The notes under the pieces were generated by a model. It made no database searches and was not told the origin of the DNA. It was given only the letters and a program-made list of their open reading frames with translations. This document shows positions 33,782-60,440 of a stretch of 64,000 bases of DNA, piece by piece. A program made the translations under genes and the position numbers. Within the stretch, counting starts at the first letter, position 1; each line of letters opens with the position of its first letter. The stretch comes from an uncultured Lachnospiraceae bacterium (GTDB taxonomy: Bacteria > Bacillota > Clostridia > Lachnospirales > Lachnospiraceae), in assembly GCA_900316625.1 (NCBI GenBank), contig ONDO01000001.1, positions 57,449 to 121,448 of the forward strand, read 5' to 3'.

Positions 33782-34771
33782 TTAATTCACGGATTCCTCT
33801 GTTTTATCTGCATCAGCTTCATCAGAATCCGGTACAACAATTGCTTCATTTCTGACATAGAGAATACTATCTCCCTGATTATTCAGGTTGATGATCTTCC
33901 CATCCATGGACAGAAGGACCTTGTTCACCCCCGGCACTTCTGTCAGGGAGTTCACGATCGCATAGACAGCCGCTTCCCTGGTAACATCCGTATTGGCACT
34001 CAGGAAGTTCGAAGACAGATTCACATAACAGATACCATCTGCAATGGACAGACTAAGAAGGGATGTATCCTTGCTATATGCCGGTTTTGCACCTCCGGTT
34101 GTAGGCGTCTTCTGCAGGTATTCCATCACAACTCTGCCAATGGGCACATTGCTGTCATAGCTTACCTTCTTCTCCTCCTTCACCAGTTTCTCGCCCGACG
34201 CATCCGGATAATAGAGAGTGAGAGTAGCAAGCTGGGTCGAAGTCTCATCTCCAATCATTCCTAAGACAAAGGAATCCTCTGTCATGGGACCGATCGTGCT
34301 TCCTCCTGGCGTTACAAGTGCTGTATGGTCTACCAGAAACTCTACGCTCTCGACTTCTTCTATCTGGAGTAAAGTCTTAACGATAGCTGCACGCACCAGG
34401 GTTTCCTGGGTTCCGGACAGATTCAGATAAGAACGGTTAAAGGAGACCGTCAGTCTACCGGTTCCTGCATTAAATACATAGTCCTGTACCGTAATTCCAT
34501 CTGGTATGGGACGGATCATATCGCTCTCATCTGTGCTCTTCTGCATCTCAATCAGAAGATTGGAGATCTTCTCATTCGTATCAATTCCCGAAGGCGTATA
34601 AGCTTCTTCTGCAAGAGCTGTCTTATCTCCGTTCAGATCATAGATCACAAAGCCTGCATCCTCTTTCATCGAGTCATCTGAAAAGCTGCTAAGCTTACCG
34701 CATCCCGAGAAGATGCCAAGGAGAAGAAAGATGGCAAGAAGTGCGCCTGCTCTATATTTATTCCGAATCAT
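33782..34771 (-). CDS. GerMN domain lipoprotein
   Basis: A 329-residue lipoprotein with signal peptide and lipobox FSGC. It contains two GerMN-type repeats, roughly residues 60-165 and 200-310, each with the pattern ...YFN/LSSNF... and an end in EVE/VLLSMDG. Bacillus GerM is needed for engulfment and germination, but GerMN lipoproteins also occur next to two-component kinases in non-spore contexts such as the actinobacterial LpqB. Here the ATG overlaps the stop of the sensor kinase by four bases (ATGA), so kinase and lipoprotein are translationally coupled. I infer it modulates that kinase at the membrane. Confidence 0.85.
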   Translation of the reverse strand: MIRNKYRAGALLAIFLLLGIFSGCGKLSSFSDDSMKEDAGFVIYDLNGDKTALAEEAYTPSGIDTNEKISNLLIEMQKSTDESDMIRPIPDGITVQDYVFNAGTGRLTVSFNRSYLNLSGTQETLVRAAIVKTLLQIEEVESVEFLVDHTALVTPGGSTIGPMTEDSFVLGMIGDETSTQLATLTLYYPDASGEKLVKEEKKVSYDSNVPIGRVVMEYLQKTPTTGGAKPAYSKDTSLLSLSIADGICYVNLSSNFLSANTDVTREAAVYAIVNSLTEVPGVNKVLLSMDGKIINLNNQGDSILYVRNEAIVVPDSDEADADKTEESVN

Positions 34772-36288
34772 GCCAGGTCCTCCTTCTCTATATAACGAAG
34801 GGGAAGACGGACATCGAAGGTCGTTCCATGATCCACCTCAGAAGATACGCGAATCTCGCCATGGTGCAGCTTGATCACATTGGATGTAATCGCAAGACCC
34901 AGACCTGTACCACCGATCTCTCTGGAATGGGACTTATCGACACGGAAGAAACGCTCGAAGATGCGGTCGATGGAATCCGCGGGAATACCCATACCGGAAT
35001 CTTCAACGCGGATATAGCAATACTGATGATCTGAGTTCAGAGAGACATGTACATAACCGCCATCATGGTTGTACTTAATACCGTTCTCTACCAGGTTCAT
35101 AAGGGCAAGCGTGAGTTTTGTTTCATCTACTTCGGCTATTACCGGACGAAAAGACTCCAGCACCAGTTCCACCTGGGAATTCTCCGCCAGAGGACGAAGT
35201 CGTTTCAGGAGAGACTCCATCATGTCATTCATAACAACAGAGCTGATATTCATATTCACTCCGGACCTGTCTAACTTTACCAGAGACAGAAGGTCATTAA
35301 TGACATTATTCTCACGGTCGATCTCACTGGTGATATCTCCCATGAATTCCCGATACATCTCAATCGGTGCTGCATCGCCCATGGAATTGATCGAATCCGC
35401 AAGTACCTTTATGGATGCCAGCGGGGTCTTCAGTTCATGAGAGACATTGGATACGAATTCGTTACGGGATTCATCCATATCCTGCATCTTCGTGTGATAT
35501 GCGTTAAAAGCTTCGCTGATATCCACGGCCTCTGTATAGCCCACAAGCGGAAGACTGGTCTGAGCCTCTTCCTGGGCCTGGCGAATTCCAGCCGCAATCT
35601 TCTTCAGACGCATGGTCATATGACTCGAGCACAGAAGGGCGAAGGCCAGGGAGACAATAATGGAGATCAGGATCACTTCCCAGGAGACATCTGTCATGAA
35701 GGCTATATTCTGTGAGATATAGGATGCTGACTTCACCACAAGAAGCACGCCTAAGACACTGCTCTCTTCGTCGCTGACATCAACCGGCTCTGTATCATTA
35801 CCCAGGCTTCCCTTACTGATTGTCGTCTTCTTCTGCGTATCCGCCAGGCTGGCAAGAGCCGGAATCGGCACTGCCACGATCAGATTATTACCGGATCTGT
35901 CATAGTAGGAATTACCGCTGCCATTAGCAGCCTGCACTACATTTCTCCAGAGCATTGTCTTGCCCTGGTCCACTCCGTAGGTATCGGAGACAACCACCAG
36001 GGAGGAATCCATGACCATGATTCTTCCGGAATAGGCATTCGCCAGTGCTGTAAACTCTGCATTCAGGAAGTCCAGGCTCGGATCCTGCAGGTATCCTGTT
36101 GTTGCAATCTGTGTATTCAGAGACATGGCGATGGAATTCACAGAAGAGATATCCGACTGAATCTGACGACTCTCATACAACTTCAAAAAGCCGGCTGTAA
36201 TGGCAATCGTCGGCACTAGAAATGACATAATAATCACTAGAAAAATTCGTAGATGAAGACTCTTAAGAGTCCGAAGCAGGGTTTGCAT
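34768..36288 (-). CDS. Membrane sensor histidine kinase with HAMP domain
   Basis: A 506-residue sensor kinase. Two membrane segments (about residues 13-33 and 200-222) flank an extracellular domain of roughly 165 residues; a HAMP linker, DHp domain (SNVSHELKTPLASIK) and ATPase domain follow. N box NLVENGIKYNH, G1 DSGMGIP, F box FERFFRVDKS and G2 GGTGLGLAI are intact, so it should autophosphorylate. The best partner is the OmpR-type regulator at 38274-38963, separated from it by the GH5 and AraC genes. Its own promoter lies at 36336-36365. The stimulus is unknown; WalK-, ResE- and PhoR-like roles are possible. Confidence 0.9.
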   Translation of the reverse strand: MQTLLRTLKSLHLRIFLVIIMSFLVPTIAITAGFLKLYESRQIQSDISSVNSIAMSLNTQIATTGYLQDPSLDFLNAEFTALANAYSGRIMVMDSSLVVVSDTYGVDQGKTMLWRNVVQAANGSGNSYYDRSGNNLIVAVPIPALASLADTQKKTTISKGSLGNDTEPVDVSDEESSVLGVLLVVKSASYISQNIAFMTDVSWEVILISIIVSLAFALLCSSHMTMRLKKIAAGIRQAQEEAQTSLPLVGYTEAVDISEAFNAYHTKMQDMDESRNEFVSNVSHELKTPLASIKVLADSINSMGDAAPIEMYREFMGDITSEIDRENNVINDLLSLVKLDRSGVNMNISSVVMNDMMESLLKRLRPLAENSQVELVLESFRPVIAEVDETKLTLALMNLVENGIKYNHDGGYVHVSLNSDHQYCYIRVEDSGMGIPADSIDRIFERFFRVDKSHSREIGGTGLGLAITSNVIKLHHGEIRVSSEVDHGTTFDVRLPLRYIEKEDLA

Positions 36289-38273: not shown

Positions 38274-38963
38274 CTATTGGCGATAATAATATCCAATGCC
38301 CCACTTGGTACGAACATAACGGGGTTCACTGGGATTGGGTTCTAACTTCTCACGAAGTCTACGGATATGCACATCAACCGTTCTTGCATCTCCAGGATAA
38401 TCATCACCCCAGATCTCGCTCAAAAGAGCTTCTCTGCTATACGCCTTATCCGGATTCTTTACCAGGAGGTAAAGCATGTCGAATTCCTTACCGGTCAGGT
38501 TGATCTCACGGTCCTTTACCAGCACACGTCTGGATTCCGTATCCATCGTAATATCGCCACTGACAAGATTATTCTCATCTGCACTTCCAGCCTTCTCGGG
38601 ACTGGTACGACGCATGATTGCCTTAATTCTTGCCTTCACTTCAAGGATATTAAATGGCTTGGTAATATAGTCGTCTGCACCATAGTCCAGACCCAGGATC
38701 TTATCCATATCATCTGACTTAGCGGTCAGCATAACGATGGGAACATTCGAAAATTCACGAATGTGCTGGCAGACTTCAAATCCATCCATCTTGGGCAGCA
38801 TGACGTCGAGAAGAATCATGTCGTAGTGATTCTTCGTCGCAAGATCGAGTGCTTCTTCACCATCATAAGCAGGATCCACTTCCATGCCATCCTGCTCCAG
38901 GCTAAAACGGATTCCTTTTACAATCAGCTTTTCATCGTCGACAACTAATACTTTCTTAGCCAT
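38274..38963 (-). CDS. OmpR-family response regulator
   Basis: A 229-residue regulator. The receiver domain has the acidic pair Asp9/Asp10, the phospho-acceptor Asp53 (LLDVMLPKMDG), Thr in VMLTAKS and Lys in YITKPF. The C-terminal winged helix ends RTKWGIGYYY with the OmpR signature EIWGDDYPGDARTVDVHIRRLREKLE. It resembles the WalR/RegX3 branch. The nearest kinase is at 34768-36288 on the same strand, but two genes lie between. comEA is 59 nt upstream, so comEA, this regulator, the kinase, GerMN and comEC may once have formed a continuous run. Confidence 0.92.
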   Translation of the reverse strand: MAKKVLVVDDEKLIVKGIRFSLEQDGMEVDPAYDGEEALDLATKNHYDMILLDVMLPKMDGFEVCQHIREFSNVPIVMLTAKSDDMDKILGLDYGADDYITKPFNILEVKARIKAIMRRTSPEKAGSADENNLVSGDITMDTESRRVLVKDREINLTGKEFDMLYLLVKNPDKAYSREALLSEIWGDDYPGDARTVDVHIRRLREKLEPNPSEPRYVRTKWGIGYYYRQ

Positions 38964-39022: not shown

Positions 39023-39760
39023 TTAACGGACCTTGATCTGATCCTTTATCTTGTTATAAGCACCCTGCTTAATTCCTGGAATCTGCATAATATCCTCCGG
39101 ATGCTCAAATGGTCCATTTTCTTCTCTATAGGAGATAATCGAAGATGCTTTGGACGAACCGATACCAGACAGAGTCATGAGTTCTTCCGGACCTGCCGTA
39201 TTGATATTCACAAGACCATCCGAGGACTTACCACTGACGCCCTCTGTCCCCCTACCACTGATATCCCCTGCCGCAAGAACTGCAAGATCCTCTGGTTTCT
39301 GTCCCCTCGAGATAAGTTCATCGACTTCTTCCCGGGTCAGAACATAGACTCTCTGTCCATCGCTTAAACGTTCTGCCTGGTTCAGATTCCTGTCATATGC
39401 ATTGGGAAGAAGGCCTCCCGCAAGCTGTATCGCTTCGTAGAGACGACTACCTTCCTTCATCTGATAGACTCCGGGTTCTTTCACAGCACCGGAAACCTGT
39501 ACGATCCAGTCCTTTGTTACAGACTCAGACGAAGACTTTTCTTCCTTCTGTTCTCTGCTTTGCTCTGTACTCTGTTCTGTACTTTGCTCTGCACGCTGTT
39601 CTGTACTTTGCTCTGCACTCGGCTCGTCATGACTGCAGTCGATTTCTTTTGCCTTCTCTGTTTTCTCCAGATAAGAGGTCTTGCCGCAAGCCATAAGAAT
39701 AAGCCCGGAAAGCACAATGCATCCAAGCATAAATACAAATAAATGAATTTTTTTCTTCAT
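39023..39760 (-). CDS. comEA: Competence protein ComEA-like lipoprotein
   Basis: DNA-binding component of the competence machinery, 245 residues. A signal peptide ends in a lipobox-like LMAC, then a Glu/Gln/Ser-rich repetitive linker (EQST, EQRA, EQSR units), an SLBB domain (VQVSGAVKEPGVYQMKEGSRLYEAI) and a C-terminal pair of helix-hairpin-helix motifs (VNINTAGPEELMTLSGIGSS, IMQIPGIKQGAYNKI). ComEA binds double-stranded DNA outside the membrane and hands it to ComEC. It has its own promoter. Most ComEA proteins have an N-terminal anchor, so a lipid anchor is a small departure. Confidence 0.9.
   Translation of the reverse strand: MKKKIHLFVFMLGCIVLSGLILMACGKTSYLEKTEKAKEIDCSHDEPSAEQSTEQRAEQSTEQSTEQSREQKEEKSSSESVTKDWIVQVSGAVKEPGVYQMKEGSRLYEAIQLAGGLLPNAYDRNLNQAERLSDGQRVYVLTREEVDELISRGQKPEDLAVLAAGDISGRGTEGVSGKSSDGLVNINTAGPEELMTLSGIGSSKASSIISYREENGPFEHPEDIMQIPGIKQGAYNKIKDQIKVR
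39545..39616 (-). repeat. Tandem 12-bp repeat inside comEA
   Basis: Six copies of a 12-bp unit coding for EQ-x-x tetrapeptides (EQST, EQRA, EQST, EQST, EQSR, EQKE) in the linker between membrane anchor and SLBB domain. Frame-neutral length variation is likely. Confidence 0.75.
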
Positions 39761-49279: not shown

Positions 49280-50512
49280 ATGGCAAAGGATAAAGTTGTA
49301 CTCGCTTACTCCGGTGGACTTGATACGACGGCGATCATCCCCTGGCTGAAGGAAAATTATAATTATGACGTTGTCTGCTGTTGCGTCGACTGCGGACAGG
49401 GTGAAGAGCTCGATGGACTCGAAGAGCGTGCCAAGATGAGTGGTGCAAGCAAGCTCTACATCGAGGATATTACCGATGAATTCGCAGAGGACTACATTGT
49501 TCCCTGCGTTATGGCGGATGCTGTTTACGAGAACAAGTACCTTCTGGGAACTTCCATGGCTCGTCCTGGTATTGCCAAGAAGTTAGTTGAGATTGCCCGC
49601 AAGGAGAATGCGGTTGCCATCTGCCACGGCGCTACCGGTAAGGGTAACGACCAGATTCGTTTTGAGCTGGGCATCAAGGCTCTGGCTCCTGATATCAAGA
49701 TCATTGCTCCCTGGAGGGATGATAAGTGGAACATGCAGTCTCGTCAGGATGAGATCGACTATGCCAAAGCACATGGCATTCACCTGCCCTTCTCTGTCGA
49801 CCAGTCTTACAGCCGTGACCGTAACCTCTGGCACATCTCCCATGAGGGTCTCGAACTCGAAGATCCTTCCTGCGAGCCTGACTATAAGCATCTGTTAGTT
49901 CTTACCACTCCTCCGGAAGAAGCTCCGAATGAACCTGAGTATGTCACCATGACCTTCGAAGCTGGTGTACCTACTTCTGTGAATGGCAATAAGATGAAGC
50001 CGGCAGATATCATTCGCGAACTGAACCGCCTCGGTGGTAAGCATGGTATCGGTATCATTGATATCGTTGAGAACCGCGTTGTTGGTATGAAGTCCCGTGG
50101 TGTCTATGAGACTCCTGGCGGAACCATCCTCATGGAAGCACATCGTCAGCTCGAGGAACTCTGCCTGGATCGTGATACGCTTGCTGTCAAGAAGGACCTC
50201 GGCAATCGTTTGGCTCAGGTCGTATACGAAGGCAAGTGGTTCACTCCTCTCTGCGATGCTCTGCAGGCTTTCGTGAAATCCACCCAGAAGTATGTTACCG
50301 GAGAAGTGAAGTTCAAGCTCTACAAGGGTAACATCATCAGGGCTGGTGAGACCTCTCCTTACTCTCTCTACAATGAATCTCTTGCATCCTTCACTACCGG
50401 TGATCTCTATGACCATCACGATGCAGAAGGCTTCATCACCCTCTTCGGTCTGCCCCTCAAGGTGCGTGCCATGAAGATGATGGAAGTGGAAGAGAAAAAG
50501 AACGCAAAATAA
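49280..50512 (+). CDS. argG: Argininosuccinate synthase
   Basis: Joins citrulline and aspartate using ATP, 410 residues. The PP-loop VVLAYSGGLDTTAIIPWL is at residues 5-22, followed by VCCCVDCGQGEELDGL, ICHGATGKGNDQIRFE, the citrulline-binding KGVYETPGG-like block (SRGVYETPGGTILMEAHRQ) and LYNESLASF. AGAGGA precedes the ATG. It is divergent from the argJBD operon; argH is not in the window. A bidirectional terminator follows. Confidence 0.97.
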   Translation: MAKDKVVLAYSGGLDTTAIIPWLKENYNYDVVCCCVDCGQGEELDGLEERAKMSGASKLYIEDITDEFAEDYIVPCVMADAVYENKYLLGTSMARPGIAKKLVEIARKENAVAICHGATGKGNDQIRFELGIKALAPDIKIIAPWRDDKWNMQSRQDEIDYAKAHGIHLPFSVDQSYSRDRNLWHISHEGLELEDPSCEPDYKHLLVLTTPPEEAPNEPEYVTMTFEAGVPTSVNGNKMKPADIIRELNRLGGKHGIGIIDIVENRVVGMKSRGVYETPGGTILMEAHRQLEELCLDRDTLAVKKDLGNRLAQVVYEGKWFTPLCDALQAFVKSTQKYVTGEVKFKLYKGNIIRAGETSPYSLYNESLASFTTGDLYDHHDAEGFITLFGLPLKVRAMKMMEVEEKKNAK

Positions 50513-50556: not shown

Positions 50557-50562
50557 TTCGAT

Positions 50563-50599
50563 AAAAAGAGTGCCGATCCAGATGGACCGGCACTCTTTT
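50563..50599. terminator. Bidirectional terminator between argG and the double-receiver gene
   Basis: AAAAGAGTGCCG (50564-50575) pairs with CGGCACTCTTTT (50588-50599) around a 12-nt loop. The minus strand reads into T5. It ends both argG and the metA-signalling run. Confidence 0.85.
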
Positions 50600-50612
50600 C
50601 ATATGGTAAGGA

Positions 50613-51371
50613 TCACTGTCCTCTCTTTTCAAAAAACTCAGCGATGGCATTTAAGATCTTAAAACCACTCATGCTTTTCAGGAGATATCCATCCGGCTTC
50701 AGGTCTAGAAGCTTCATGACCGTTTTCTTATCAGACTTACCGGTGAGGAAGAACACTGGAATGTCTTCGGTATAAGCTTCAGAGCGAATCATCTCCAGGA
50801 CGGTAGAGCCATCGACAACCGGCATCTCATAATCCAGGAGGATCAGGTCCACATCATGCTTGGACAAGAAGGAGAGCGCAGCTGCACCGGAATTCACCGG
50901 CGTCACATTATATTTCTCTGACAGCCAGTTCTGAACAGTTCTTAAATACATGCCATCATCATCGACGACAAGAATTCTCTTTCGCTCATCTTCTACCTTC
51001 TGCTCATCCTCAAGAAGCTTCACCGAATGCAGGAGCTCCCGGAGATTCAACGGACGCAGCAAAGTCTTTCGAACCATGGGTTCGGGTACAATATGATAAA
51101 ACTCATTACGCTCTTCCAAAGAACCGATGAATAAAAGAACATCTCCATCCTCAATAACCTGGTCTTTCAGATACAATAGGGCTTTCTTCTCACGAAGAAG
51201 TTCCTCACTTCCATAAACGATTACAAGGCTGGGGAGGTTACTGAATCGTTTGATCTCATCGATATCCGGAAAAATAGCCTCTACGTTGTAATGTGCTTCC
51301 GTAAGGTGATCTTCAAGTGTGCTGACAAGGAATGTTTCTCTGGATCTTACAATAACAACAGAGCGAAACAT
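50613..51371 (-). CDS. Double-receiver protein (degenerate REC + intact REC), no output domain
   Basis: A 252-residue protein. Residues 1-120 look like a receiver that has lost its chemistry: the phospho-Asp position is within LVIVYGSEEL, with no acidic pocket. Residues 131-250 are a complete receiver with acidic residues Asp137-139, phospho-acceptor Asp180 (LLDYEMPVVDG), Thr210 and Lys232. There is no DNA-binding or enzymatic output. It begins two bases after the stop of the FIST hybrid, so it is the natural acceptor of phosphate from that protein. The terminator at 50563 follows. Confidence 0.85.
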   Translation of the reverse strand: MFRSVVIVRSRETFLVSTLEDHLTEAHYNVEAIFPDIDEIKRFSNLPSLVIVYGSEELLREKKALLYLKDQVIEDGDVLLFIGSLEERNEFYHIVPEPMVRKTLLRPLNLRELLHSVKLLEDEQKVEDERKRILVVDDDGMYLRTVQNWLSEKYNVTPVNSGAAALSFLSKHDVDLILLDYEMPVVDGSTVLEMIRSEAYTEDIPVFFLTGKSDKKTVMKLLDLKPDGYLLKSMSGFKILNAIAEFFEKRGQ

Positions 51372-51372
51372 C

Positions 51373-54117
51373 TTACCCCTCCTTTCCTTTCTCTAATATC
51401 TCTAACACGCCATCATGATCCATGTGGTTGAGACGTTTCTTTAGCTCCTCATACATTGCTTTCCCGCTCTCGGGGATTTCATATTCCTCAAGGGTTTTCA
51501 TCACATCATCAGCGCTTATAGTGTCAAAAGCTGAGACAAATTCATAGATGGCATCGTAAGCTTCTTTAAGATACTCTAAATCGATTGCTTTCTTCTGTTT
51601 TACATCTTCCCTGGGAAGTAGTTTCTTCAGAAGAAGCACCCGGTCCTCCACCTCCTGCTTTAGAGCCGGCAGCCTTCTGGCAATGGCTTTTGCATCTTCC
51701 GCATCTCCGAGGTGCTCTAACTCCTGAGAATACTTAGACAGATCCATGGCTCCGGCGATTCTTGACTCTGTCTTAAAAGCATGAATTTTGATGGTGAAAT
51801 TCTTCAGATCATTCTTACGGAAGAACTGAACAATCTCATTGATATGCTCTACCGCCTCTGCCACATAGGTCTTGAGGAGTCCCAGATACTGCTCTGCATC
51901 TCCACAATACCCAATTGCAGCCGCAAGGTCCATACCCTCGATCTTCGAAATCTCACGGAAGATCTCAGCCTCTCCATCTGACATATTCCGGATCAATTCT
52001 TCCAGAGAGGCATGTTCTTCCTCGATACCATCTACGCCACTCAGTTTTCTCGACACCTCTTTTGGCTGCAGAAGAACCACCTTCTCCGAAGGCAGGTGTT
52101 CTCTTACTGTATCCTCGAGAGTCTTGATGGTAACCGGTTTGGCAAGATAGTCATCAAAACCAGCTTCCAGGAACTTCTCACGCATTCCAACAATAGCATC
52201 CGCTGTCAGAGCGATAATGGGAAGGCTCGGACGGGACTTCATCTTCGAAGGATCCATCTGGCGGACAAATTGCAGGGTCTCCGTTCCGGTCATCTCCGGC
52301 ATGCAGTAATCCATCAGTACAAGATCATATTCCTTATCCGTTAAAGCATCGATGGCTTCTCTTCCAGACCTGACCAAATCCACATGAATATCACACTGCT
52401 GCAGCATAGCTTTAATCACAGTCAGATTGATCTCGGTGTCATCTACCACCAGAACTCTGGCATTAGGTGCACGGAAAGGATAGCGCACCTCCTTCACGCG
52501 TTTAGAACGTGCCTGGGCAGCTTCTTCCTTGAAGAGTTGAACCAGTTCAGCATCTGACAGGTTTCCTTCCCTTTCCTTTTCCATTCCCCGCCTTGCATTC
52601 TCTTCAATCTTCTTTTCATCCAGAAGGCCATTTACAATTCCAAGAAGGATATTCGCTGCATCCCGGATATGCTCTGCATTGGATAGGGTCTGCTTCTCCT
52701 TGGTATCTCTTAAAGTCACTTCATTCATTCCCAGAATCGCTGTAATCGGTGTACGAATCTCATGAGACAGATCGACAAGGAAGCGGGACTTGGCTTCATT
52801 CTCCGCTTTTTCTGCTTCGAGCTTCTGCTCGAGCATGCTTTCCTTCTGTCGTTCATTTACCGCTACAAGTTCTGCAGTGGAAGTCTGCATGAAGTGAGCC
52901 ATACGGTCGTAGAGAGGTGTCCTGCCAGAAGCATCTAACATATTTTCATTCTTCTCCAGCACTTCCTTCCGGGTCGCCTGGGTCATATGCTCCTTCATGG
53001 CAAGAGAAACCATGGCACAGTTCAGGATCATGAGTCTGCCACAATGCATATAGAGTTCACCGAAGCCAGAGCATCCGGTCACTTCCGGAAGAACCGCACG
53101 ATAGAAGTCCAGTTCCTTCTTCTGATCATCTGCCAGATACATCTGACGATTGACACAGATGGACAAGAGAAGAGCTTCCGGAGCAAATTCATTGATGACA
53201 AGTGCATTTCTTCTGGAGCCGTTGATCAACTCCCCTACGCTTCCCATAGACAAGCGCATCTTCTCTCCTTCTTTCAGATCGGAAGGAAAGAGAACCGAAC
53301 CATCCGGTGTATTCAAAAGTGCTGCTCTTGCTACATCGAGCCCCTCTCTTCTTACGATCAGAGGAAACTCCATCAGGTTAAGAGCAAGATTATCATTTAC
53401 AGGCACACCTAAGTAATGTGAGAGAACCTCTGCAGCGGGTCGATGATCAATCTCAGCAAGGAAGCCACCCGGCTTCATCTTCGTAATGGTATGTTCTACT
53501 CCCACGGGCTTCCAGCCGGTGGTAACACGACACTGTGCTCTCAGATACTTCCCATGGAAGATAACAGCAACAACGCCTTCCATCATCACATGATCGCCAA
53601 TGACAAAATAATTCTGATTTGATCTATCCGAGATCGATGAAGAGGAGAAATATCCACTCACGCAGATGTTCTCATTTTTAAAATGGACATTTTCTGCAAA
53701 TCGTCCCGGATCAGACATGACTATTCCGTCTGCAATAATACGGATTGCTTTTACATCATCCATTGCATCTACAAACTGCGACAGTGAAGCCGCGATTTCT
53801 TCTTCGCTGGCTCCCTTTTCAGATTTGAAAATATTACACCTCGCGGTGTCCAAGAAGAGAAAAGACAAAAGAATGGAGTGGAAAGCCTGTACGCCTCCTC
53901 CTACCTCCATAGTGGTGGTAGAACCGGCAACCATCACTCCGGGAATCGTCGTCCGGATTCTCTGAACGATGCGCTCTATCTCCTCCGGATGCCGGGTCAG
54001 ACCTGTCATAATCTCGCAGTAGATGTCACCACGAACTCCGGCAGACTCTAACACAACCTGACGCAGGATATCATCAAGTTCTGTCTCACTCTGAATCATA
54101 TAGGAAAGTTGTCGCAC
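51373..54117 (-). CDS. FIST-HisKA-REC-HPt hybrid signalling protein without an ATPase domain
   Basis: A 914-residue soluble protein. Residues ~1-390 are a FIST sensory domain (GVMVAGSTTTMEVGGGVQAF, RVTTGWKPVG, DHRPAAEVLSHYLG, NDNLALNLMEFPLIVRR). A coiled coil leads to the DHp helix with His452 in LVDLSHEIRTPITAILGMNE. Only about 50 residues separate the end of DHp (~503) from the receiver (553-672, Asp603, Lys660), so the HATPase domain with N, G1, F and G2 boxes is absent. An HPt domain follows, with His779 in IHAFKTESRIAGA. The start is GTG at 54117 with GGAG six bases upstream. It lies 15 nt after the cNMP-domain gene. Confidence 0.88.
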   Translation of the reverse strand: MRQLSYMIQSETELDDILRQVVLESAGVRGDIYCEIMTGLTRHPEEIERIVQRIRTTIPGVMVAGSTTTMEVGGGVQAFHSILLSFLFLDTARCNIFKSEKGASEEEIAASLSQFVDAMDDVKAIRIIADGIVMSDPGRFAENVHFKNENICVSGYFSSSSISDRSNQNYFVIGDHVMMEGVVAVIFHGKYLRAQCRVTTGWKPVGVEHTITKMKPGGFLAEIDHRPAAEVLSHYLGVPVNDNLALNLMEFPLIVRREGLDVARAALLNTPDGSVLFPSDLKEGEKMRLSMGSVGELINGSRRNALVINEFAPEALLLSICVNRQMYLADDQKKELDFYRAVLPEVTGCSGFGELYMHCGRLMILNCAMVSLAMKEHMTQATRKEVLEKNENMLDASGRTPLYDRMAHFMQTSTAELVAVNERQKESMLEQKLEAEKAENEAKSRFLVDLSHEIRTPITAILGMNEVTLRDTKEKQTLSNAEHIRDAANILLGIVNGLLDEKKIEENARRGMEKEREGNLSDAELVQLFKEEAAQARSKRVKEVRYPFRAPNARVLVVDDTEINLTVIKAMLQQCDIHVDLVRSGREAIDALTDKEYDLVLMDYCMPEMTGTETLQFVRQMDPSKMKSRPSLPIIALTADAIVGMREKFLEAGFDDYLAKPVTIKTLEDTVREHLPSEKVVLLQPKEVSRKLSGVDGIEEEHASLEELIRNMSDGEAEIFREISKIEGMDLAAAIGYCGDAEQYLGLLKTYVAEAVEHINEIVQFFRKNDLKNFTIKIHAFKTESRIAGAMDLSKYSQELEHLGDAEDAKAIARRLPALKQEVEDRVLLLKKLLPREDVKQKKAIDLEYLKEAYDAIYEFVSAFDTISADDVMKTLEEYEIPESGKAMYEELKKRLNHMDHDGVLEILEKGKEG

Positions 54118-54132
54118 CTTGTTCTCCTAACT

Positions 54133-56247
54133 CTATCGTTTCAGATGATCTATTTCTTCCATCAGCTCCTGTGGAACCTGATCCCCCTGTTTCTCCACTC
54201 TGCGGATAATATTCATCAGTGGACGAAGCTTCTGTTCCTGATGGGTATGATAACGATTTAATAATTCCGTATACTGAGGATTCATCTTGAGTTTATTGCG
54301 AATCTCCTCCGTGAAAGGACAGTAATTGAAGAGGATACTTCTCGTAACCTTATTCATCAGAGGAGATCCATTGCTCTCCGAGATCATGTAGACGTAATAA
54401 TCCGTTACAAAGGTCTTCCGAAGATTATTACCACTCTTCTGAAGAATCTTCTTTACCTTCTCCTTCTGCTCCAGGGACAGATCATGATTCTTACGGTAAT
54501 ACTGGATGTAATCCGAGTATTCCGAAGTAAGGGAAGGATCTGAAAGATCGTTCCAGTGAACGCCCTGCTCTGTCTTGGTCATCTCCCAGCGGAAATCACC
54601 GCAGACACCAATCATCGTCTTAAGGAGATCTTCTGACAGGAAGATGGGAAACATAAATCGAGCGGGAGTATCGCGCTTCTTCCCTTCAATCTCCTGCCAT
54701 AAGGCTCCCTTGGAACCTACATTGGGCATAAGAATGATATTGGGCAGAACCTCTTTCGTTACCGGGCAATGGCTAATTCCAAGAGCCTCATTGTTATAAT
54801 CTCTGTCTCTTAAGAAGATGCTGCCATCAATAGAACGAATCTTATCCATCGCTTCGTGCAGTTTCTCATTGGAGAGGTAAGCTCGAGACAGATCGGTAAG
54901 AACATTCTGCGCATCAAAAACAGGCTGGAAGACCGACATGCGTCCAAAGGTCATACGGTTACCCAGTTTGAAGAGGTTACCTAGTTCGAAGCGAACCTTC
55001 TCCTCTGCATCCCGAAGGAGAACCTTCTCCCTGGCCTCCGTAATCTCACCATTCACACGAAGATCTCTTAAGTATGCCGGATAGTCCAGATCGAATTCAT
55101 TCTTACTAGGCGGAACCTGACCGTTATAGATCTTGATCAGCCACTGGAAGATGGTATGTACATTGCCTTCCGGATCCGGGCGATACTCCTCTAAGAGTCT
55201 TTTGAGAATTGCTGTATAGTTTTCTCCTGCAAGTTCCTCATCCAGGAAGCCAAATACCAGGAACATTCTAACTTCCAGAGGAATGTTCATAGGATCATCC
55301 ATGGCTTTTAAAAAGGCAGCCATATAGATGTCATAGAACATATCGGTAACCAGGCGTCTCAGTTTTCTGCAGACATCACTGGTATCCGTACGGTCCGGAA
55401 GCGCCTTGAAATCCATCATTAGCTTATGATAGGTCATGATCTTGTCTGCAGGTACCTGCGCCCAGCTGGTAATTTTATCGAAAGCTCCGACAATAGGTGT
55501 ATCGTCACTATCCCCAGATTCCGAAGCCTGGGTCATGGCTTTTTCTTTGGTACGAATGACACTCATCTCCATGCAAAAGCTCTCAGAGATCTCCTTCATC
55601 TTCTCCATTCCAAGAAGCATGCGAATCACACCCTGAAAGGCTTCATCCTGTAGCCTCTTTATCATAAGGATGGTTCCGATGGTCAGATCCACCGACAGAG
55701 AATAGAAACCATTTCGAACTCCAGGGGCATTTTCTTCCATAGCGGTCAGATAATCACATTCCCAACCTTCCTGAAAAACCACGTCCTCCGGCTCCTGAAT
55801 CTTCTCTAATTCCGAATACACCTGTAAGGTACGGTGGGTCGCCGCTGCCAGCATGGGATATTCACCCCTGTCATTCTGAATCGCCTGGTATTCTGCCATG
55901 AATTCACTAAAGAGCTGTTGGTATGCACTATAGAGAGACACTGTAGATCGAACCGCTTCGGTCGCGATGGCCGGTGCGAGTTTCGCATTCTGATGAATCA
56001 GATTGACCAGATCACTCTCCCCATAATAATCGTAGGTATATAGCTGGGCATCCGCCTCTGCCTCATAGCTAAGCGCATATTCTGCTCCCGCTTCCTCCGT
56101 GATACCGATCAGAGCACCCGGACCATATGTCACCCTCTGGGAACCAGCCTGTGCACTGATGGATCCTGACAATAGAAGATCCAGGGTCTTCACTCCGTCC
56201 CCCTGGCGGTGAAGCACCTCACCCTGACTTAATTTCAGAAGTCCCAT
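54133..56247 (-). CDS. Cyclic-nucleotide-domain protein with large unrecognised C-terminal region
   Basis: A 704-residue soluble protein. Residues 1-100 form a CRP-type beta barrel (LSQGEVLHRQGDGVKTLDLL, SGSISA, YGPGALIGI), but the phosphate-binding cassette lacks the conserved arginine, so cyclic nucleotide binding is uncertain. The remaining 600 residues are mainly helical and match no family I know; GSIFLRDRDYNNEALGISHC and NIILMPNVGSKGALWQEIEGK look like conserved cores. There is no helix-turn-helix or membrane segment. It starts four bases after metA, its GAGG ribosome-binding site lying inside the last metA codons, and precedes the FIST hybrid by 15 nt. Confidence 0.8.
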   Translation of the reverse strand: MGLLKLSQGEVLHRQGDGVKTLDLLLSGSISAQAGSQRVTYGPGALIGITEEAGAEYALSYEAEADAQLYTYDYYGESDLVNLIHQNAKLAPAIATEAVRSTVSLYSAYQQLFSEFMAEYQAIQNDRGEYPMLAAATHRTLQVYSELEKIQEPEDVVFQEGWECDYLTAMEENAPGVRNGFYSLSVDLTIGTILMIKRLQDEAFQGVIRMLLGMEKMKEISESFCMEMSVIRTKEKAMTQASESGDSDDTPIVGAFDKITSWAQVPADKIMTYHKLMMDFKALPDRTDTSDVCRKLRRLVTDMFYDIYMAAFLKAMDDPMNIPLEVRMFLVFGFLDEELAGENYTAILKRLLEEYRPDPEGNVHTIFQWLIKIYNGQVPPSKNEFDLDYPAYLRDLRVNGEITEAREKVLLRDAEEKVRFELGNLFKLGNRMTFGRMSVFQPVFDAQNVLTDLSRAYLSNEKLHEAMDKIRSIDGSIFLRDRDYNNEALGISHCPVTKEVLPNIILMPNVGSKGALWQEIEGKKRDTPARFMFPIFLSEDLLKTMIGVCGDFRWEMTKTEQGVHWNDLSDPSLTSEYSDYIQYYRKNHDLSLEQKEKVKKILQKSGNNLRKTFVTDYYVYMISESNGSPLMNKVTRSILFNYCPFTEEIRNKLKMNPQYTELLNRYHTHQEQKLRPLMNIIRRVEKQGDQVPQELMEEIDHLKR

Positions 56248-56251
56248 TTAA

Positions 56252-57193
56252 CTACCTCATCTCCTGCTTTTCACTCTCAGGCTTTCCCAGGAAGATATAG
56301 GGCGTTGCCTGATATACATAATAATTTAACCAGTTGGTATAAAGGGTATTGGCATGCCCTCTCCACTGCATGATCGGACGTTTGGACGGATCATTCTCCG
56401 GATAGTAATTCACAGGCATGGCGATGTCCATTCCCTTTTCCAGATCTCTCTTATATTCCTTATCCAGCGTCATGCGGTCATATTCCGGATGGCCCATCAC
56501 GAAGATCTGAGAACCATCCTCATTCATGCAGAGGAAGGTTCCAACCTCATTCGACTCCGCAAGTGTGATCAGATCCGGATGTCTGCGAATGTCATCCGAA
56601 TTCACTTCCGTATGTCGGGAATGCGGCGCCATGAAGTAGTCATCGAAGCCTCTGACCAGAGGCACTCTGCGGTGCATCACCTTGTGGGAGAAGACACCGA
56701 AGACCTTCGCCGGAAGCATATGTTTATTGATCCCGTAATGGTAGTAGAGAGCCGCCTGGGCTCCCCAGCACAGATGAAGCGTACTGGTCACATGGCTCTT
56801 TGACCATTCCATAACATGGCAGATCTCCTGCCAGTAATCCACTTCTTCGTATTCAAGTTTCTCAACCGGAGCCCCCGTAATAATCATTCCATCGAAGAAC
56901 TCGTTCTCTACTTCATCAATGGTCTGATAGAACTTATTCAGATGACTCTTCGAGGTATTGGCAGGAGTGTGGGTCTTCATCGCAATGAAGGAGACATCGA
57001 CCTGCAGCGGAGTATTCGAAAGCATGCGAAGAATATGAAGCTCTGTATCCTCTTTTAGGGGCATAAGATTCACGATCAGAATGGACAGAGGACGAATATC
57101 CTGATGCATCGCCCTGTTCTCATCCATAACGAAAATATTCTCTTTTTCAAGAATTGCCTTTGCAGGCAGATCACTCATTGTACGAATGGGCAT
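56252..57193 (-). CDS. metA: Homoserine O-acetyltransferase, MetA type
   Basis: Acylates homoserine in methionine synthesis, 313 residues. The glutamine-amidotransferase-like catalytic set is Cys142 (HLCWGAQA), His235 and Glu237 (GHPEYD). Position 111 in TGAPVEKLE is Glu; characterised MetA enzymes with Glu111 use acetyl-CoA whereas those with Gly111 use succinyl-CoA, so I call it an acetyltransferase. GGGGGGA lies upstream of the ATG. No methionine riboswitch fits into the 90 nt between it and ligA. The signalling gene that follows begins four bases after its stop. Confidence 0.93.
   Translation of the reverse strand: MPIRTMSDLPAKAILEKENIFVMDENRAMHQDIRPLSILIVNLMPLKEDTELHILRMLSNTPLQVDVSFIAMKTHTPANTSKSHLNKFYQTIDEVENEFFDGMIITGAPVEKLEYEEVDYWQEICHVMEWSKSHVTSTLHLCWGAQAALYYHYGINKHMLPAKVFGVFSHKVMHRRVPLVRGFDDYFMAPHSRHTEVNSDDIRRHPDLITLAESNEVGTFLCMNEDGSQIFVMGHPEYDRMTLDKEYKRDLEKGMDIAMPVNYYPENDPSKRPIMQWRGHANTLYTNWLNYYVYQATPYIFLGKPESEKQEMR

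Positions 57194-57282: not shown

Positions 57283-60440
<3,158 letters not shown>

Follow-up and report, generated by a model that had tools for sequence, protein, structure and literature searches.

FHK, a FIST-containing protein encoded in the 64,000-nt window (the whole stretch of Lachnospiraceae DNA that we analysed), most likely descends from a FIST hybrid kinase that was once intact and whose ATPase domain has gone; the phospho-acceptor residues that we checked are kept. By sequence comparison, this is a loss of the ATPase inside a family of hybrid kinases that is mostly intact, and it probably happened there more than once. For the locus as a whole, the explanation that we favour, and that we put forward tentatively, is that FHK, its partner REC2 and a third protein, CNP, come from two separate sources within a housekeeping row, and that FHK, gated by FIST, would be served in trans as a node for phosphotransfer (or for phosphatase activity). 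The row runs rluB-ligA-metA ... argG, with three further genes between metA and argG: CNP, a widespread gene that mostly occurs without the other two, and FHK-REC2, a member of a common pair family.

The four ORFs from metA to REC2 lie head to tail (Table 1), with gaps in the ORF list of 4 nt (metA-CNP), 15 nt (CNP-FHK) and 1 nt (FHK-REC2). They are followed by a strong terminator, a 19-bp hairpin with T-rich sequence after it (−30.6 kcal/mol, z −8.3; none of 200 shuffles was as good), which lies between the converging REC2 and argG and may serve both. The original prediction had described just such a row with a single terminator; the ORF coordinates and the hairpin agree with it, and the close packing is compatible with one transcript. 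Shine-Dalgarno-like stretches within the 3′ ends of metA and FHK, and also in the 15-nt gap, make translational coupling plausible at these sites. Rfam gave no riboswitch in the window at the gathering level; at the permissive level, the surroundings of metA yielded one match, no better than chance (E 0.44). A known RNA near metA was discarded as a candidate, as nothing credible was found at either level.

Table 1. Features of the locus, with positions in the window
Feature	Position	Strand	Description and basis
metA	56252..57193	-	Homoserine O-acyltransferase, acetyl type by NCBIfam, 313 aa; ORF list, Pfam, NCBIfam
CNP	54133..56247	-	704 aa; CRP-like barrel (about residues 1-110) and large C-terminal domain of no recognised family
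CNP C-terminal domain	54133..55497	-	Residues 251-704; AlphaFold2 model, standalone forms
FHK	51373..54117	-	914 aa, GTG start; FIST-FIST_C-HisKA(DHp)-REC-HPt without HATPase_c; Pfam, alignments
FHK FIST + FIST_C sensory region	53050..53988	-	Residues 44-356; Pfam E 3.1e-18 and 1.5e-14
FHK HisKA/DHp	52600..52794	-	Residues 442-506; Pfam E 1.2e-11; intact H-box SHEIRTP at 451, His452
FHK linker	52466..52599	-	Residues 507-550 (44); site of the ATPase domain in intact relatives; alignment
FHK REC	52105..52455	-	Residues 555-671; Pfam E 8.2e-24; D559/D560, phospho-Asp603, T638 and K660 kept
FHK HPt	51646..51879	-	Residues 747-824; Pfam 24.1 bits, cut-off 24.6; His779 kept
REC2	50613..51371	-	252 aa; pseudo-receiver (about 1-120) and receiver (133-243); Pfam, profile comparison, alignment
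Intrinsic terminator hairpin	50561..50602	-	Between REC2 and convergent argG
argG	49280..50512	+	Convergent downstream neighbour; marks the block-free site in relatives; label by sequence recognition
ligA, NAD-dependent DNA ligase	57283..59328	-	Upstream neighbour; label by sequence recognition; ligA-metA arrangement common in the genus

FHK and the hybrid kinase-REC2 pair family

In Pfam, the FHK matches to FIST, FIST_C, HisKA and Response_reg passed the curated thresholds and the one to Hpt narrowly missed, which bears out the FIST, DHp, REC and HPt content first read in the protein, the HPt domain marginally. The protein had also been described as having no ATPase, and this was confirmed: Pfam gave no HATPase match at E values up to 1, a CA profile run against FHK with all filters off returned just a 1.3-bit stretch over the HisKA region, and a genome-wide HATPase_c search had no match in the FHK frame. 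Pfam and the CA profile thus revealed no hidden CA domain; the CA profile was built, like the HisKA and REC-HPt profiles, from 4 to 6 sequences. Without a catalytic domain, FHK does not by itself qualify as a histidine kinase. In the alignment it is colinear with two intact relatives, L255 and L067, except for the missing ATPase; at the position of the FHK linker, intact relatives have a HATPase_c match of about 115 residues (559-673 in L255, E 5.9e-25). The residues H452, D559, D560, D603, T638, K660 and H779 are all kept.

The downstream protein, REC2, had been read as a double receiver. Its C-terminal half is a clear receiver; the N-terminal half had no Pfam Response_reg match, and a profile comparison aligned it with C-terminal receivers over the whole domain (73% probability, E 3e-5). 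We call this half a pseudo-receiver because it has lost the acidic and phospho-Asp positions. As REC2 lacks an output domain, it would have to act through the binding of a partner. Its relatives were found at E<=1e-40 in at most 92 of 299 genomes of the family, an upper bound since hemerythrin-REC proteins are included (as seen in L295); the best E value was 1e-60 or lower in 49 of the 299, counted by eye. A few of the genomes scanned also supplied sequences to the query alignment and match by construction.

We then took a census of 94 REC2 loci, made up of L067-L080, L021, the window and the 80 further REC2 hits at E<=3.8e-83, a tandem copy being counted together with its neighbour. Left out were L224 and L243, which failed the REC2 filter, and L079, which has no REC2; L072, with a short REC2 of 218 aa, entered the census and the tree by manual choice. 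Directly upstream of REC2 there was a HisKA+CA protein at 61 loci and a REC+HPt protein without CA at six, the remainder being a CA protein without HisKA (2), a partial protein (5, among them L265, a 373-aa REC and weak HPt protein without CA that stands outside the six), no such protein (18) or a contig end (2). FHK-REC2 has the layout of the pair, a REC-HPt protein followed, here after 1 nt, by a pseudo-receiver/receiver protein of ~250 aa; 67 of the 94 loci, that of the window among them, have such a protein upstream of REC2. Hybrid kinase and REC2 are a recurring pair, and FHK is one of its six ATPase-less members. Our literature searches, in an open-licence library, turned up no report of the pair family.

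The six members differ in what they keep. HisKA is present in the window, L075 and L249 and absent in L069, L072 and L237. All REC and HPt residues checked are kept in FHK, L075, L069 and L072; REC residues are lost in the aligned slice of L237 and L249, although L249 also has a further REC, matched by Pfam, and its H-box is intact. L075, from another genus, has the DHp-REC-HPt architecture without CA. Among the intact members, L255 is a FIST-HisKA-HATPase-REC-HPt protein followed by REC2, and L067, from the genus of the window, has the same architecture, again with REC2 directly downstream.

To place FHK in the family we used a quick maximum-likelihood tree, made without bootstraps, of 57 REC-HPt stretches, those of the 94 loci with a full REC-HPt. 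FHK grouped with L255 (SH-aLRT 89, not starred), so that its nearest relative among those examined is an intact FIST kinase. Parsimony needed four changes of the no-CA label, three of them forced by starred branches, and eight of 500 label shuffles were as low; the label is more clustered than in most of them, in part because L069 and L072 are near copies. As 22 of the 54 inner branches are weak, the label is clustered and the program warned that L237 and L249 may have been joined falsely by their long branches, the number of losses is rough. The pattern suggests repeated loss of the ATPase in the pair family. Long branches lead to FHK (1.27, the median end branch being 0.45), to the L069/L072 pair, to L237 and to L249, and they fit decay as well as new function.

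CNP and the surroundings of metA

A cNMP barrel had been predicted at the N-terminus of CNP. By Pfam it is weak in the protein of the window (18.6 bits, under the cut-off of 27.5), and a relative, L034, passes with 32.9 bits; the barrel is supported by a 62-sequence profile that matched CRP (E 1e-4) and by the structural model. The full model, with a mean pLDDT of 90.7, gave 63 fold matches at E<=0.001, and the 50 listed, which cover 93-215 alignment columns of the 704 residues, were all proteins with barrels of the cyclic-nucleotide-binding type, mostly CRP. The Arg-Ser of CRP that holds the phosphate of cAMP is not kept in the alignment of the CNP profile with CRP; ordinary cAMP binding by the CRP-like barrel is thus unlikely. 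Two further candidate roles were rejected. CNP as a transcription factor found no helix-turn-helix, either in Pfam for the protein of the window or among the fold matches, and CNP as a phage or defence protein had a best PHROGs E value of 0.049 and no PADLOC match.

The C-terminal domain is the least explained part of the locus. Its 454 residues alone were modelled confidently by AlphaFold2, with a pLDDT of 92.8 and a pTM of 0.90. Fold searches gave nothing at E<=0.001 in the PDB (best E 0.95, TM 0.16) or among the BFVD viral models (best E 0.064, TM 0.14), and a sequence search of the PDB had a best E value of 0.42. Pfam matched the domain in the protein of the window and in standalone forms no better than E 0.12, apart from a PBC match in the relative L021 (30 bits, cut-off 25, residues 296-423), in which no single stretch passed; as none of the further CNP proteins that we scanned showed PBC, we took it for a chance match to a helical region and rejected it as the family of the domain. 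A profile of the domain matched nine of 299 genomes of the phylum, and in five of the nine, which belong to two other families, it forms a standalone protein of about 470-480 aa without the barrel, two read as ORFs and the others by open-frame or ORF length. Across 57 sequences, 23 columns are invariant. What comes up here is a widespread protein with a large C-terminal domain for which Pfam, NCBIfam, PHROGs, PADLOC, PDB and BFVD gave nothing credible.

Relatives of CNP were found in at least 570 stretches of named genome contigs, and the gene is present in 15 of 61 relatives' genomes, five of them within the genus, the window's own included in both counts. We analysed the neighbours of the best 80 of these at least 570 loci, which belong mainly to Lachnospiraceae (Butyrivibrio and many rumen MAGs) together with Selenomonas, Anaerovibrio and other Selenomonadaceae. 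Genes were called with a simple longest-ORF caller, so spurious ORFs may separate true neighbours, and no gene was called upstream in one locus and downstream in six. Among these best 80 loci, all of them outside the window, metA adjoins CNP in two, both of the same genus, and REC2 adjoins it in one. The commonest labels within three genes, given by motifs, were tmcAL-like (22), purL-like (12) and alaS-like (10); the neighbours vary, and a function of CNP could not be read from them. CNP would be a separate soluble protein; its widespread gene mostly has neither FHK-REC2 nor metA beside it.

MetA itself matched Pfam HTS at E 2.4e-138, and its best fit is the homoserine O-acetyltransferase model, with 484.2 bits for NCBIfam MetA_acetyl (above the cut-off of 460.5) and 433.7 for MetA_succinyl (below 495). 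We compared its surroundings in nine genomes, that of the window and eight genus-mates in the collection. The neighbour of metA is ligA in seven of the nine, own genome included, and rluB in the other two; argG was located in five, and among these five the window alone has CNP-FHK-REC2 between metA and argG, the block being absent in all four readable genus-mates. In G001 and G005, whose MetA proteins are 83% and 79% identical to that of the window, ligA and metA are followed directly by convergent argG after 34 and 59 nt, respectively. By coordinates, the interval is about 173 nt in G002 and about 1,210 nt in G004, where it holds an unrelated 187-aa ORF; in the window, 5.7 kb separates the ends of metA and argG. 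CNP lies directly after ligA in L083, L085 and L086, in the order rluB-ligA-CNP-argG in the first two, without metA or FHK-REC2 in between, and rluB-ligA-CNP in the third. Of seven CNP genomes searched for metA all have it, adjoining CNP in two; a metA-CNP adjacency with a 15-nt gap occurs in G003 and G008. FHK-REC2 stands at the metA-argG site in the window only, among the genomes read. The neighbour counts and the genus comparison rule out metA-CNP-FHK-REC2 as a conserved unit, and metA as a constant partner of CNP.

These comparisons do not uphold the metA-coupled signalling unit that had been claimed, nor did the gene-neighbourhood check proposed along with it find the three signalling genes conserved as a unit. 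The link to metA is a local arrangement for which no specific tie to methionine is needed, metA being at most a co-transcribed neighbour, and the row does not look like a methionine control system. Close packing beside metA is, as a correction to that view, no evidence of methionine control.

Alternative readings and possible phosphoryl donors

Under the explanation that we favour, FHK would be unable to phosphorylate itself, and a kinase elsewhere in the cell would phosphorylate His452 in trans or load the REC domain of FHK. The phosphoryl group would then pass along DHp-REC-HPt to the C-terminal receiver of REC2, or drain back, and REC2 would act by binding a partner. A conserved metA-coupled operon, whose FIST and cNMP-barrel domains would sense the state of methionine or homoserine and pass it to a relay without a kinase, could draw on the short gaps, the Shine-Dalgarno-like sites inside upstream genes, the one terminator and the metA-CNP adjacency of G003 and G008. 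We consider it very improbable in view of the genus-mates that lack the block, the rarity of metA and REC2 beside CNP in the best 80 loci, the three genomes with ligA directly before CNP, and L067, where the FIST kinase-REC2 pair has neither metA nor CNP in its 12-kb stretch. Hardly credible, too, is an assembly artefact as the reason for the missing ATPase. The assembly is a draft in 52 contigs and 84% complete, which makes absences from it soft; against this, the contig is 121 kb long, the reading frame runs on through the junction, the linker is no truncated CA domain, and the same CA-less DHp-REC-HPt architecture occurs in another genus, in L075.

Two other readings, each of them rather unlikely in our judgement, concern what FHK does now. 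One is decay: the kinase gene lost its ATPase and the remainder drifts without function, the open frame being still translated. The long branches of FHK and most ATPase-less members, the degenerate REC slices of L237 and L249, and the 5 partial and 18 missing REC-HPt proteins directly upstream of REC2 among the 94 loci are what decay would leave behind; it would not be expected to leave 914 codons open, a tight FHK-REC2 junction and every phospho-acceptor and metal-site residue checked in place, nor the same REC and HPt residues in L075, L069 and L072, which belong to another genus or to other species. In the other, FHK would chiefly remove or absorb phosphate from REC2 or another system, as a phosphatase or sink under FIST control. 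The H-box of FHK, HEIRT, contains a Glu-x-x-Thr pattern, which is linked with phosphatase activity of DHp domains, and the kept REC and HPt residues suit this role; transfer from HPt to REC2 would, however, work forwards too. A phosphatase role is suggested for HisKA proteins without HATPase by Galperin et al. 2018 (PMC5847659).

As to donors for the trans phosphorylation that we favour, an intact pair is encoded in each of the six genomes that have an ATPase-less member, but also in 33 of the 41 other census genomes, so this permits service in trans and says little about it. The window's genome has 13 HisKA and 20 HATPase matches, and a comparison of frames leaves two of the 13 HisKA matches without an HATPase, those of FHK and of a HisKA-REC protein of 466 aa (C13:10629-12029). 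The gene of the latter overlaps by 25 nt that of a 604-aa protein, and the pair is outside the window on the same contig as FHK. In the 604-aa protein, HATPase_c is joined by an HPt-like end that scores below the Pfam cut-off, with Glu at the position of the H-box His and Tyr at that of the HPt His. The simplest reading would be that the two are acceptor-only and ATPase-only partners, with transfer in trans. Used as a query in the genus-mates, the 604-aa protein matched mainly the kinase part of their proteins, at best with 42% identity over residues 250-471. A scheme that joins all these parts, and that we regard as a distinctly long shot, would have the 604-aa ATPase-only protein phosphorylate both acceptor-only proteins, FHK and the 466-aa protein, in trans, FIST gate the flow to REC2, and CNP, through its 454-residue domain of a fold outside the solved structures, be the effector controlled by phosphorylated REC2.

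Comparison with known systems

CheA3 and CheA4 of Rhodobacter sphaeroides form a split kinase, with the acceptor on one protein and the ATPase on the other. The 466-aa and 604-aa proteins resemble them in this separation of acceptor and ATPase and differ in being of the HisKA rather than the CheA type. CNP shares with the CRP/FNR family the N-terminal cNMP-type barrel; unlike that family it has no C-terminal helix-turn-helix that we could find, and the Arg-Ser is not kept.

The original prediction, which knew of no described system of this composition, was too strong on this point. The FIST hybrid kinases L255 and L067 have the same FIST-FIST_C-HisKA-REC-HPt order and REC2 directly downstream, and differ from FHK in that FHK lacks HATPase_c. 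Moreover, archaeal HK-like proteins of the type 'HisKA, no HATPase' have been described as a class, with suggested roles in phosphotransfer or as phosphatases, and the available passages connect them with the P2CS label 'Possible incomplete histidine kinase' (PMC5847659). By its domains FHK fits this class, with a sensor domain, a HisKA domain with the conserved His and no ATPase; several of the archaeal proteins, of another group, also carry REC. The class differs in being archaeal and, in those passages, in having no HPt or paired double receiver (PMC5847659); FHK stands inside a mostly intact kinase family.

A FIST domain also serves as sensor in the histidine kinase pathway of NosP, which senses nitric oxide through haem; unlike FHK, NosP is a separate haem protein acting on an intact kinase (PMC12570481). 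For its mode of action, the closest analogy would be PhyT, a histidine kinase relative with a degenerated ATPase that is a phosphotransferase through its conserved His. PhyT/PhyP of Sphingomonas, Spo0B and ChpT are described as carrying out DHp-type His phosphotransfer without kinase activity of their own and as thought to descend from histidine kinases (PMC5898713). PhyT keeps its degenerated ATPase (PMC5898713); FHK has none, just the 44-residue linker, and adds its own REC and HPt. Loss of the ATPase with the phospho-acceptors kept, probably more than once, means that sensor kinases can become relay or phosphatase nodes, and among bacteria of gut and rumen fewer proteins may be kinases than tallies of 'histidine kinases' imply. 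To judge from the alignments and the census, the kinase-less FHK is a traceable domain loss with parallels in its own pair family.

Surroundings and separate occurrences of CNP

In three genus-mates (L021, L022 and L023), relatives of four window genes lie downstream of the gene for CNP, the 704-aa protein with an N-terminal CRP-like barrel; in the window itself these four genes are about 14-20 kb from it. A tmcAL-like gene, labelled by motif, is often close to CNP in Butyrivibrio records (part of L093-L126), and was found at most three genes away in 22 of the 80 loci, the best 80 of at least 570 matches. Other families of the phylum also have the C-terminal domain of CNP as a separate protein, 469-476 aa long, and in one such stretch (L277) its divergent neighbor is what we take to be a CheW-like gene.

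Unusual relatives of REC2

REC2 is the 252-aa pseudo-receiver and receiver protein. At L237, a REC-HPt-only protein with a degenerate REC is followed by two tandem REC2 genes. The 218-aa REC2 copy of L072 lacks the phospho-Asp stretch and adjoins an ATPase-less REC-HPt protein. At L295 (462 aa) and L044, a hemerythrin domain is joined to a C-terminal receiver resembling that of REC2; proteins of this kind are among the weaker REC2 matches.

A candidate split kinase in the same genome

Two genes overlap outside the window on the same contig, C13. One encodes a HisKA-REC protein of 466 aa that has no ATPase; the product of the other, 604 aa long, is of HATPase-HPt type but keeps neither acceptor histidine, having Glu at the H-box position and Tyr at the HPt position. 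The pair is a candidate split kinase.

Coordinates of the features
Feature	Location	Strand	Remark
Standalone CNP C-terminal-domain protein	L275:1495-2904		
Standalone CNP C-terminal-domain protein	L277:1426-2856		
Window genes with relatives downstream of CNP	39023-39760, 38274-38963, 34768-36288, 33782-34771		
REC-HPt-only protein, tandem REC2 genes	L237:821-3375		
Short REC2 copy	L072:9713-10369		
Hemerythrin-receiver protein	L295:1176-2564		
Overlapping gene pair	L288:840-4030 (G000:C13, about 8.8-12.0 kb)	minus	outside window
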